Assembly: GCF_021991835.1 (NCBI RefSeq)
Contig: NZ_JAHDAU010000003.1
Span: 310,001 to 374,000, forward strand
Length of the DNA: 64,000 nucleotides
Reading direction: 5' to 3'
From: Polaribacter sargassicola
Lineage (GTDB): Bacteria > Bacteroidota > Bacteroidia > Flavobacteriales > Flavobacteriaceae
Made by a program: the position numbers and the translations under genes. Under the pieces are notes generated by a model. The model worked only from the letters and a program-made list of their open reading frames with translations, had not been told where the DNA came from and did no database searches. Of this stretch, positions 40,754 through 43,377 are shown one piece after another. Every line of letters starts with the position of its first letter. Position 1 is the first letter of the stretch.

Positions 40754-41578
40754 TTATTTTCTACCGTTTTTATAAGTTCCTAAAATTTTAAATTCTTCCG
40801 CCATTATTTCCATAATTGCTTTTACTTTCTCATAATCTTTATAAGCCTCAAAAGTAACATCAACAAAAAATGAATATTTCCATGGAGTTTCTATTACTGG
40901 TAACGATTGTATTTTGGTTAAATTCATTTTACAATCACTTAATACATTTAAAATAGCAGCTAAACTTCCTCTTTTATGATCTAACTGAAATTTTAAAGAA
41001 GCTTTATTTACTTCTTCGTTAATTTTAGGTTTTTCTGTTTGTATAATTACAAATCTGGTAGCATTATCTTTTATGGTTTGCAGCTCATCTTCAATAACTT
41101 CTAAATCAAAAATTTCTGCGGCTATTTTTGGTGCAATTGCTGCAATACCTTGTAAATTTTCTTTTGATATTCTTTTAGCTACTTCTGCAGTATCTACATC
41201 TTCTACTAATTTAATATGCGGATGTTTTTTAAAAAACTCTTTACATTGTAGCAGTGCCATAGGGTGAGACCAAACTTCTTTTATATCTTCTATTGCTTGC
41301 CCTTTTAAAGCCATTAAATGATGATGAATATTTAAATACTCTTCATCTGTAATATGCAAATTATACTTATCAATCAACGCATAATTAGGTATTATAGAAC
41401 CTGCAATTGTATTCTCTAAAGCCATTACACCTAAATTTGCAGATTTATTTAATAGGCTATCTACTAGCTCATCAAAAGACATGCATTCTTTTAATTGAAT
41501 TGAGTTTCCATAAAAATTGCGTGCAACTTTATGATGATTTGAGCCTTCTGCTCCTTGTATGGCTATAATTTTTTTCAT
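40754..41578 (-). CDS. pheA: Prephenate dehydratase with ACT domain
   Basis: A 274-residue enzyme making phenylpyruvate. The catalytic part (about 1-180) includes AIQGAEGSNHHKVARNFYG, LGVMALENTIAGSIIPNYALI, LMALKGQAIEDIKEVWSHPMALLQC, and DNATRFVIIQTE with the T-R-F active-site signature. The ACT domain (about 195-270), KASLKFQLDHKRGSLAAILNVLSDCKMNLTKIQSLPV, should give Phe feedback. It is the first structural gene of the operon and sits 9 bases after the T tract of an attenuator, behind a Phe/Tyr-rich leader peptide. Expression should therefore fall when Phe-tRNA and Tyr-tRNA are fully charged (inference). Confidence 0.95.
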   Translation of the reverse strand: MKKIIAIQGAEGSNHHKVARNFYGNSIQLKECMSFDELVDSLLNKSANLGVMALENTIAGSIIPNYALIDKYNLHITDEEYLNIHHHLMALKGQAIEDIKEVWSHPMALLQCKEFFKKHPHIKLVEDVDTAEVAKRISKENLQGIAAIAPKIAAEIFDLEVIEDELQTIKDNATRFVIIQTEKPKINEEVNKASLKFQLDHKRGSLAAILNVLSDCKMNLTKIQSLPVIETPWKYSFFVDVTFEAYKDYEKVKAIMEIMAEEFKILGTYKNGRK

Positions 41579-41586
41579 TTTATATC

Positions 41587-41616
41587 AAAAAAAAAGCCTC
41601 GAAAAAAATTCGAGAC
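41587..41616 (-). terminator. Attenuator terminator of the Phe/Tyr operon
   Basis: On the minus strand GTCTCGAA pairs with TTCGAGGC around five Ts (one G-U wobble), followed directly by nine Ts, ending 8 bases before the pheA ATG. The 5' arm can instead pair, as AAAGTCTC (41612-41619), with the perfectly complementary GAGACTTT at 41653-41660 inside the leader peptide gene. That alternative is an antiterminator. Confidence 0.88.
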
Positions 41617-41637
41617 TTTATATTTTAGAAATGTTTA

Positions 41638-41718
41638 TTAACAACATGATACAAAGTCTCTCCTCTTACTAAAAAAGTAAAAGTAAAAATAGAAACGAGT
41701 AAAATTGTTATTTAACAT
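41638..41718 (-). CDS. Phe/Tyr-rich leader peptide of the aromatic amino acid operon
   Basis: A 26-codon reading frame, too short for ordinary gene calling. It runs from an ATG at 41718 to TAA at 41638-41640. Codons 9-16 encode FYFYFYFF, eight aromatic residues in a row, and codons 6 and 22 are also Phe. The frame begins 24 bases after a perfect -7 element. Codons 20-22 contain the strand GAGACTTT that pairs with the 5' arm of the terminator at 41587-41616. A ribosome stalled on the aromatic codons would leave this strand free. One that finishes at the stop codon would cover part of it. This is the layout of classical ribosome-mediated attenuation as in E. coli pheL and trpL. Expression has not been shown. 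Confidence 0.88.
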   Translation of the reverse strand: MLNNNFTRFYFYFYFFSKRRDFVSCC

Positions 41719-41741
41719 CTTAATTCTCTTTGTTTGAGTGA

Positions 41742-41749
41742 CAAATCTA
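41742..41749 (-). promoter_or_regulatory. -7 element of the Phe/Tyr operon
   Basis: On the minus strand it reads TAGATTTG, a perfect TAnnTTTG. A start site near 41736 would put the leader peptide ATG about 18 bases into the transcript. No clear -33 TTG is visible in the T-rich stretch upstream. The next 130 bases up to the class V aminotransferase gene show nothing else. Confidence 0.6.
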
Positions 41750-41880
41750 AAAATTAAATTAGTATAAAAAAATTATATCTGTTTTTTTCTAAAAAAATTG
41801 ACAGATTATTAAAAAAATTACAATTTAATCAACCTGAGTTATGAATTCTTCTCACTAAATATAAGATTCAGTATAAAATT

Positions 41881-43377
41881 CTAAATTTTAAACCACTCTT
41901 TAACCAATTCTTTTTCAATTGGATCTACTGTTTTGTGTGTATAATCATTTTTAATTGCCTCATATTTATAATCTTTAGACCATTCTTCTATATTTAAAGA
42001 AAGTTCTTTTAAAGAATTACAAATAAAATTCAACTCTTCTGTTGTTACAGTTGGATGTACAGACAATCGTACCCAACCTGGTTTTTGAGTATTACAACCA
42101 TGTAAAATTTCGTCTTTAATTTTATTTGATGTTTCTTGATCTACATTTAATAAAAAATGCCCGTAAGTTCCGGCACAAGAACAACCTCCTCTTGTTTGTA
42201 TCCCAAATCTATCATTTAGTAGTTTTACTACTAAATTAAAGTGGTATTTTTCAAAATAGAAAGAAAAAATGCTTAGTCTTTCTTTATGGTTTGGCGCTAA
42301 AATTTTTACATCTTGTAATCCTTCTAGAGTTTCAAAAAGCACTTTGTTTATTTCTTCTTCTCTTTCTTTAATATTTTCTGTACTCATTTGCTCTTTCAAT
42401 TGTATTGAAAGTGCAATTTTAATTGTTTGTAAGAAACCTGGCGTTCCGCCATCTTCTCTTGTTTCTACATCATCAAAATAATCATGTTGTCCCCAAGGAT
42501 TTGTGTAACTTACAGTTCCTCCTCCTGGATTATCTGGAATAGTATTTTTGTATAATTTTTTATTAAAAATTAAAACTCCAGATGTACCTGGACCTCCTAA
42601 AAATTTATGAGGAGAAAAGAAAATTGCATCTAAATATTCTTCTTCAATTTCTGGATGCATATTTATATCTATGTAAGGCGCACTGCAGGCAAAATCTACA
42701 AAACACAAGCCATTATAACTATGTATTAATTTTGCAACTTCGTGATAAGGAGTTTTAATACCTGTTACATTAGAGCATGATGTTATAGAAGCTATTTTAA
42801 TTTTTCTATCTTGATGTTTTTGAATACTTTTTTCGAATTCTTTTAAACATAACAATCCTTCATCATCACAAGGTACAACCTCTACATCTGCAATAGTTTC
42901 TAACCAAGAAGTTTGGTTAGAATGATGCTCCATATGTGTTACAAAAACAATTGGTTTTAATTCTTCTGGAACTGTTGTATGGTTTTTTAAATTTTCGGAA
43001 ATCTTTAAACCTAAAATTCTTTGAAACTTATTTACAGCTCCTGTCATACCAGTACCTGCAGTTATTAATACATCATTATCATTTGCATTAACATGCTTTT
43101 TTATAATTTTTCTAGCTTCATGATACGCCAATGTCATTGCTGCACCAGAAGTAGATGTTTCTGTATGTGTATTTGCTACAAAAGGCCCGAACTGATTTAA
43201 TATCTTATTTTCTATTGGAGCGTATAATCTTCCGCTTGCGGTCCAATCTGTATAGATTAATTTTTGTTCTCCGTAAGGAGATTGAAATGATTGATCTATA
43301 CCTATAATATTTTCTCTAAATTGATTAAAATATTTTTCTAAATCTGACTTTACTGTACTTTCTTTTAATGAATTCAT
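41881..43377 (-). CDS. Class V aminotransferase-fold PLP enzyme (cysteine desulfurase/selenocysteine lyase-like)
   Basis: A 498-residue fold-type I enzyme. It has YTDWTASGRLYAPIENKIL, VANTHTETSTSGAAMTLAYHEAR, DVLITAGTGMTGAVNKF, FVTHMEHHSNQTSWLETIADVEVVP and FVDFACSAPYIDINMHP. FFSPHKFLGGPGTSGVLIF holds the PLP Lys. A Cys-containing loop GGCSCAGTYGHFLL is found near the C-terminus. Compared with SufS or IscS (about 400 residues) it is about 90 longer and lacks the usual RSGHHCAQP loop, so it is a distinct subfamily without a proven substrate. It is separated from dsbD by 22 bases on the same strand and may follow it in one transcript. Confidence 0.85.
   Translation of the reverse strand: MNSLKESTVKSDLEKYFNQFRENIIGIDQSFQSPYGEQKLIYTDWTASGRLYAPIENKILNQFGPFVANTHTETSTSGAAMTLAYHEARKIIKKHVNANDNDVLITAGTGMTGAVNKFQRILGLKISENLKNHTTVPEELKPIVFVTHMEHHSNQTSWLETIADVEVVPCDDEGLLCLKEFEKSIQKHQDRKIKIASITSCSNVTGIKTPYHEVAKLIHSYNGLCFVDFACSAPYIDINMHPEIEEEYLDAIFFSPHKFLGGPGTSGVLIFNKKLYKNTIPDNPGGGTVSYTNPWGQHDYFDDVETREDGGTPGFLQTIKIALSIQLKEQMSTENIKEREEEINKVLFETLEGLQDVKILAPNHKERLSIFSFYFEKYHFNLVVKLLNDRFGIQTRGGCSCAGTYGHFLLNVDQETSNKIKDEILHGCNTQKPGWVRLSVHPTVTTEELNFICNSLKELSLNIEEWSKDYKYEAIKNDYTHKTVDPIEKELVKEWFKI

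Follow-up and report, generated by a model that had tools for sequence, protein, structure and literature searches.

In E. coli, pheA is preceded by the leader gene pheL, which encodes a leader peptide with codons for the product of the pathway, and the leader RNA is divided into strands 1–4, with a terminator before the prephenate dehydratase gene. The control codons of pheL are Phe codons, with no Tyr control codons known among them, and E. coli pheA encodes a fusion with chorismate mutase and forms a separate transcription unit. Attenuators that respond to several amino acids are found at ilvGMEDA (Leu/Val/Ile) and thrABC (Thr/Ile). Attenuation requires tight coupling between the ribosome and RNA polymerase. 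A comparative study of attenuators from 2004 reportedly may list some cases from Bacteroidetes/Chlorobi.

In Flavobacterium psychrophilum, 64 structured 5′ regions were described in 2021 (PMC9723704). The main text of that paper gives strong clues for leader-peptide attenuation before amino-acid biosynthesis operons. It also describes a structured 5′ element upstream of pheA, which is conserved in other genera of the Flavobacteriaceae and has no Rfam hits; the main-text section on this element gives no peptide, Phe/Tyr codons, alternative pairing or reach beyond the family. In Bacteroides thetaiotaomicron, the published text mentions sORFs reminiscent of leader peptides (PMC7366714). The Bacteroid-trp motif (RF01692), which by its name belongs to a trp context, was presented as a candidate cis-regulatory RNA in Bacteroidetes (Weinberg 2010, PMC2864571), as is the leader described here. 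Among the open PMC papers listed in literature searches, no other description of this Phe/Tyr leader or of a class-wide reach was found.

We analyzed a pheA leader in a stretch of 64,000 nucleotides, referred to as the window. Like E. coli pheL-pheA (Phe_leader, RF01859), it has a leader peptide with product codons, strands 1–4 and an intrinsic terminator before prephenate dehydratase. Unlike pheL, it mixes Phe and Tyr codons. As at ilvGMEDA and thrABC, one leader would read several amino acids linked to the operon, although the pathway and the phylum differ. Judged from its sequence and that of its relatives, this leader is very probably a ribosome-mediated transcription attenuator. The mechanism is that of classical attenuation, and both leader-peptide attenuation in general and the pheA 5′ element have already been reported in the main text on F. 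psychrophilum. What is new here, as far as sequences can tell, is the joint sensing of Phe and Tyr (a presumed response), the covariation of three strands and the spread through the class. The features of the locus are as follows.

41742..41749, minus strand: -7-like promoter element TAGATTTG of the TAnnTTTG type, from sequence
41638..41718, minus strand: leader ORF of 26 sense codons (start ATG at 41718, last base of the TAA at 41638), product MLNNNFTRFYFYFYFFSKRRDFVSCC, from sequence
41671..41694, minus strand: control codons 9–16, FYFYFYFF, part of strand 1, from sequence and aromatic enrichment in relatives
41676..41683, minus strand: 5′ arm of the local hairpin, CTTTTACT, candidate pause hairpin, from covariation in the genus alignment
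41663..41670, minus strand: 3′ arm of the local hairpin, AGTAAGAG, from covariation in the genus alignment
41653..41660, minus strand: strand 2, GAGACTTT, 5′ strand of the antiterminator in codons 20–22, pairing extendable to 41649
41609..41619, minus strand: strand 3, AAAGTCTCGAA, serving as 5′ terminator arm and also, starting at 41612 (up to 41623), as the antiterminator's 3′ strand
41593..41603, minus strand: strand 4, TTCGAGGCTTT, 3′ arm of the terminator, from family-wide covariation
41587..41595, minus strand: run of nine Ts of the intrinsic terminator, from sequence
40754..41578, minus strand: pheA, prephenate dehydratase (PDT), PF00800 at 184.4 bits
39567..40709, minus strand: class I/II aminotransferase, PF00155 at 207.9 bits
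38712..39563, minus strand: tyrA, prephenate dehydrogenase, PF02153 at 118.1 bits and PF20463 at 87.6 bits
37608..38690, minus strand: DAHP synthase / chorismate mutase fusion, PF00793 at 131 bits and PF01817 at 80.4 bits

A preliminary description of this DNA had claimed a 26-codon leader with the run FYFYFYFF, a -7 element before it, two complementary octamers, and a hairpin with nine Ts 8 bases before pheA. All of these were found when the minus strand was read directly. The ORF is rich in codons for the putative products, with eight successive Phe/Tyr codons among 26, and the aromatic enrichment is kept in relatives. The element at 41742–41749 is of the TAnnTTTG type. TAnnTTTG is the flavobacterial -7 motif; translation start signals in this bacterial class are not known to follow the Shine-Dalgarno rule. 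Strand 2 (41653–41660) is perfectly complementary to AAAGTCTC (41612–41619), and the antiterminator can be extended to 12 bp (GAGACTTTGTAT with ATATAAAGTCTC). An intrinsic terminator lies between the leader and the first gene (41587–41619). Its hairpin is AAAGTCTCGAA / TTTTT / TTCGAGGCTTT at 41593–41619, followed by the nine Ts at 41587–41595, and the ATG of pheA (41578) is 8 bases past this run. Directly 5′ of strand 2, an 8-bp hairpin (41663–41670 with 41676–41683) covers the last aromatic codons and the next three. The 163-nt leader has a folding z of -4.2, and 0 of 200 shuffles were equally stable.

The order of the operon (pheA, aminotransferase, tyrA, DAHP synthase/mutase) had been read from translations, and Pfam matches to all four genes back it. 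The ACT match of pheA is below threshold (PF01842, 21.4 bits; cut-off 27). From this gene set (PDT, aminotransferase, prephenate dehydrogenase and DAHP synthase/chorismate mutase), the operon should make both Phe and Tyr. Upstream of the leader, positions 41881–43377 of the minus strand encode a class-V aminotransferase-like protein (PF00266, 165.9 bits).

The promoter activity, ribosome stalling, kinetic order of folding and starvation response that we infer would combine as follows. With a ribosome delayed at the Phe or Tyr codons, strand 2 (GAGACTTT) would stay exposed. It would then pair with strand 3 (AAAGTCTC), and the terminator formed by strands 3 and 4 would be blocked before pheA. 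With ample charged tRNA-Phe and tRNA-Tyr, translation would proceed to the stop codon, where the ribosome would mask strand 2; the terminator would now form from strands 3 and 4, keeping expression of the operon low. In an untranslated leader, the prediction is that strand 2 pairs with the codon strand and that the terminator forms as well. Since codons for both Phe and Tyr are present in the leader, attenuation should be relieved whenever one or the other product of the operon is scarce.

If this reading is correct, the aromatic codons should recur in relatives, as the preliminary description had pointed out, and they do. A leader was scored as an ATG ORF of 12–45 aa that lies no more than 420 nt from PDT and has at least 7 F/Y/W in 10 codons. 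Of 58 genomes of the genus, the genome of the window among them, 54 have PheA, as do 45 of 45 near-complete ones. Fifty-two of these 54 loci passed the test, compared with 0/54 on the opposite strand and 6/1080 shuffles. In the two exceptions, the leader is degenerate (L050) or displaced from pheA (L053). In L053 and in L054, of the same genus, leader and terminator are kept and the distance from the leader stop to the PDT match is ~400 and ~175 bases, respectively. A CTCG...CGAG hairpin followed by at least 7 Ts is present at 54/54 loci. A -7-like element lies upstream of the ATG in 48 of 52 scorable leaders of the genus, a frequency that carries no chance control; within 60 nt of the ATG its form is TAN2TTTG in 40/52 and TAN3TTTG, with one extra base, in 8/52.

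We take the family to be the Flavobacteriaceae and the class to be the Bacteroidia, from named records and the preliminary description. A covariance model of the genus leader scored 119.9 bits at the window locus and 36.8 bits at the next best site in the same genome. It matched 217 of 299 family genomes at E ≤ 0.001, a figure that may include false matches because those near E = 1e-3 can arise by chance. Matches near this value were rejected as family evidence, since several of them were overlapping plus/minus pairs or had chance-like scores. PDT was present at all 90 inspected match loci (30 given as loci and 60 picked by hand, mostly one per genus). After two repeats of genus-set genomes were dropped, 88 family loci were left, one of which (L057) is also from the same genus. 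The leader test was passed at 86 of these 88, compared with 11/1760 shuffles and 1/88 on the opposite strand. In L064 and L224, leaders recognised by eye lie farther from PDT than the test limit.

Family loci were also selected by PDT score alone (29 of 36 other PDT-bearing genomes), and 28/29 have the leader, with 0/29 on the opposite strand. Among family genomes negative for the model (20 of 82 sampled), 12 have PDT, and of these 10 have a leader by eye and 9 by the test.

In other families of the same order, 29 of 39 PDT-bearing genomes were sampled, with families f2 and f14 left out. The leader is present in f3 (1/1) and f8 (2/2), and the test failed in f4 (0/14), f15 (0/11; genomes near 0.6 Mb) and f11 (0/1). 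This suggests leader loss or a different control of the PDT genes in f4 and f15. The loci without a leader at the threshold of 7 are L300–L309, L315, L317, L321 and L326 in f4, and L310, L311, L313, L316, L318–L320, L322, L323, L327 and L328 in f15. One f15 ORF, in L323, reaches 6 aromatic codons compared with the threshold of 7.

In other orders of the class (20 of 23 listed loci), 12/20 loci have the leader, with 0/20 on the opposite strand and 0/400 in shuffles. The other 8/20 are below threshold, and L340 and L349 among them are leader-like by eye. Outside the class, the leader was found in 0/27 PDT loci (27 of 53 sampled). A search of many genomes for DNA encoding FYFYFYF gave at least 117 stretches among the matches listed; 4 have PDT nearby, each with a leader, and no PDT match falls within the remaining 113. 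Named records with the same layout, among the matches listed, are Niastella caeni, one Paludibacteraceae genome and two Bacteroidales genomes.

These counts bear on the idea that the leader is an accident of composition, in which an AT-rich genome produces TTT/TAT codons and T runs by chance. Such ORFs do arise by chance, as the 6 genus shuffles, 11 family shuffles and single family opposite strand above indicate. The strong enrichment on one strand, the persistence in other families and orders, and the covariation described below all speak against it, and we regard an accident as barely conceivable.

To see what the leader may read, we compared the codons of 170 leaders. This set includes one probable chance leader (L323, f15), which was left out of the analyses of stall position and aromatic clusters (169 leaders). 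Phe and Tyr codons are both present in 170/170, in agreement with the proposal that the peptide would read the supply of both amino acids and match the gene set. A Trp codon is present in 112/170 leaders (e.g. L070 and L225; MTKQYFWNGFYFYFFF...), and 79 of 114 Trp codons lie 9–10 codons before the last aromatic codon. When the ribosome is held at the Trp position, pairing of strands 2 and 3 (2:3) is predicted at 0.98, a result that does not set this stall apart from any other upstream one. Trp shortage might therefore also be read, and on this model all three aromatic amino acids may be sensed. If so, Trp sensing would suit the DAHP synthase of the operon. A search of the genome of the window for a his leader by runs of histidine codons was abandoned: it gave 58 matches compared with 20 for the reversed pattern, and the three in the window had no leader.

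The composition of the run also bears on a second explanation, arrest of the ribosome by a specific nascent chain. TnaC stalls its own ribosome in response to tryptophan. By analogy, the aromatic peptide could stall its ribosome in response to a ligand rather than for want of charged tRNA, and stalling by either route would lead to the same RNA switch. The order FYFYFYFF is common, ending the cluster in 30 of 169 leaders, and is well kept within the genus. However, there are 67 distinct aromatic clusters among the 169; composition and position are conserved rather than an exact motif, which argues against a sequence-specific arrest peptide. Control-codon logic also fits the operon's own products. 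An arrest peptide is very improbable, and stalling for want of charged tRNA is the preferred reading.

The alternative pairing had also been expected to be conserved and to covary in relatives. It does so between groups, where strands 2, 3 and 4 change together, with no covariation within the genus. Strand 3, the 5′ arm of the terminator, varies by group (GTCTCG, GTCCCG, GTCCTG, GCCTCG and others), and strands 2 and 4 follow. We located strand 2 by a motif independent of arm 3, with 37/170 leaders set aside (25 with other arm types and 12 without the motif). A C in arm 3 goes with G in strand 2 in 45/45 leaders. A T goes with A in 85/88, 53 of the 85 being from one genus, and with G in 3/88. 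The antiterminator is mutually exclusive with the terminator, and its 5′ strand comes after the control codons.

When arms were swapped between leaders, the own arm 3 complemented strand 2 better, and 0 of 5000 permutations reached the observed mean. This was the case in each set (109 distinct arms overall, 76 in the family and 19 outside it). The own arm was the single best fit in just 10/109, 10/76 and 5/19, respectively, because many arms share a core. The strand-3 letter needs about 7 parsimony changes on the PheA tree, compared with 42 for shuffled labels, so the number of independent events is modest.

When the window was aligned with 95 family loci (96 sequences in all), the terminator had 54 double-change cells compared with 16.5 after shuffling, and 96.0% of its helix cells are paired. 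In the same plain alignment, 68.9% of 2:3 cells pair, compared with 66.3% after shuffling. We rejected this alignment as a measure of 2:3 pairing, since strand 2 is one base out of register in about half of the sequences. The GTCTC and GTCCC groups are offset from each other by one base in strand 2, which makes column counts too low for the pairing; arm swapping and the arm-3-independent motif search were used in its place. Within the genus, covariation of 2:3 is 0.060, compared with 0.060 after shuffling. In columns 47–55 of the family alignment, where this shift occurs, the groups also have different residues behind the aromatic run (KRNETLYV versus KRGTGLL).

The short hairpin upstream of strand 2 was aligned in 43 of 54 genus sequences, and 98.2% of its cells are paired. 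At one pair, 18 of the 43 sequences have C-G and 19 have U-A. The covariation score and the 20 double-change cells were reached by 0/500 shuffles, and the number of pairs with a double change (2) was matched by 52/500. At the codon level, the Tyr codon TAC occurs with a following AGT in 26/54 leaders and TAT with AAT in 18/54; the remaining ten are shorter, irregular or cut out of register. Synonymous codon choice favours local folding, with a mean z of -0.91 and 86% of 167 leaders below zero. This hairpin is a candidate polymerase-pause hairpin. A longer 1:2 helix, taken from the minimum free energy fold, was rejected as the conserved pairing of strand 1: 90.1% of its cells are paired and its covariation is not above shuffles.

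The distance between the codons and strand 2 is also fixed. Measured from where the last aromatic codon begins, the median distance to the start of strand 2 is 13 nt (5–95%: 11–15), compared with 4–46 in shuffled regions, and the distance falls within 9–15 nt in 94.6% of 166 leaders compared with 18% in shuffled regions. The footprint assumed here places the leading edge of a ribosome 12 nt downstream of where the A-site codon begins. Strand 2 would start at about this edge when the last aromatic codon is in the A site. On this footprint, strand 2 is predicted to be free at the control codons and covered at the stop codon.

We then folded the leaders with the ribosome at successive positions, skipping those without a usable strand 2 (L245, L341 and L101). 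Before arm 4 is present, predicted 2:3 pairing is 0.96 when the last aromatic codon occupies the A site, and 0.73, 0.17 and 0.02 at one, two and three codons further (n = 166). The aromatic run thus appears to end at the last stall position that leaves strand 2 free. Without arm 4, a ribosome anywhere ahead of the last aromatic codon is predicted to allow 2:3 pairing, and folding alone therefore does not single out the aromatic codons. With arm 4 present at equilibrium, the stalled leader retains 2:3 in just 43/167. Antitermination would therefore need co-transcriptional capture of strand 3 before strand 4 emerges. The terminator is predicted in 165/167 leaders when the ribosome has reached the stop codon, and in 163/167 without translation. 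At that codon, the ribosome would hide 40% or more of strand 2 in 158/167 (7/12 in the class sample). The hairpin found in 170/170 leaders is no evidence in itself because the terminator finder always returns the best hairpin.

This geometry weighs on a third explanation, in which the terminator is constitutive and partial, and the leader ORF merely boosts translation of the next gene as an antenna or by reinitiation, with no amino-acid sensing. The published text of PMC4833913 proposes that leader genes raise translation of the next gene by reinitiation, and the distances it gives for Bacteroidetes peak at 11–14 bp; the leader stop here is 59 nt from pheA. Such a boost has no role for a covarying strand 2 or for its fixed distance from the aromatic codons. 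We consider it very improbable.

A terminator and an alternative pairing alone would fit any attenuator, including one in which the ORF plays no part and the terminator is under the control of a riboswitch, a T-box or an RNA-binding protein. An Rfam scan of the window found no family at the gathering score, Bacteroid-trp (RF01692) included. A permissive scan of 41560–41800 gave sub-threshold matches only, among them Phe_leader (RF01859) with 20.5 bits against a cut-off of 55; Bacteroid-trp had no match at E up to 10. Moreover, the conserved part is the aromatic-codon ORF itself, which would leave little space for an aptamer. Control of this type is highly improbable. The aromatic-codon conservation, the covariation of 2:3 pairing and the ribosome geometry all argue for ribosome-mediated attenuation, as the preliminary description had read the locus from its letters.

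The locus would be a well-defined case of ribosome-mediated attenuation beyond the proteobacteria and actinobacteria, in which a single leader senses two end products together, perhaps three. The leader alignments and the covariance model could serve as the seed of a new Rfam family. Should the switch behave as proposed, it would offer a system for probing transcription-translation coupling in flavobacteria. The chances seem to us about even that a single ancestral attenuator, which reads Phe and Tyr, and often Trp, jointly, has governed the synthesis of aromatic amino acids since the ancestor of the class and was later lost in some families. If this is true, tight coupling between the ribosome and RNA polymerase would be ancestral in the class and still in use.
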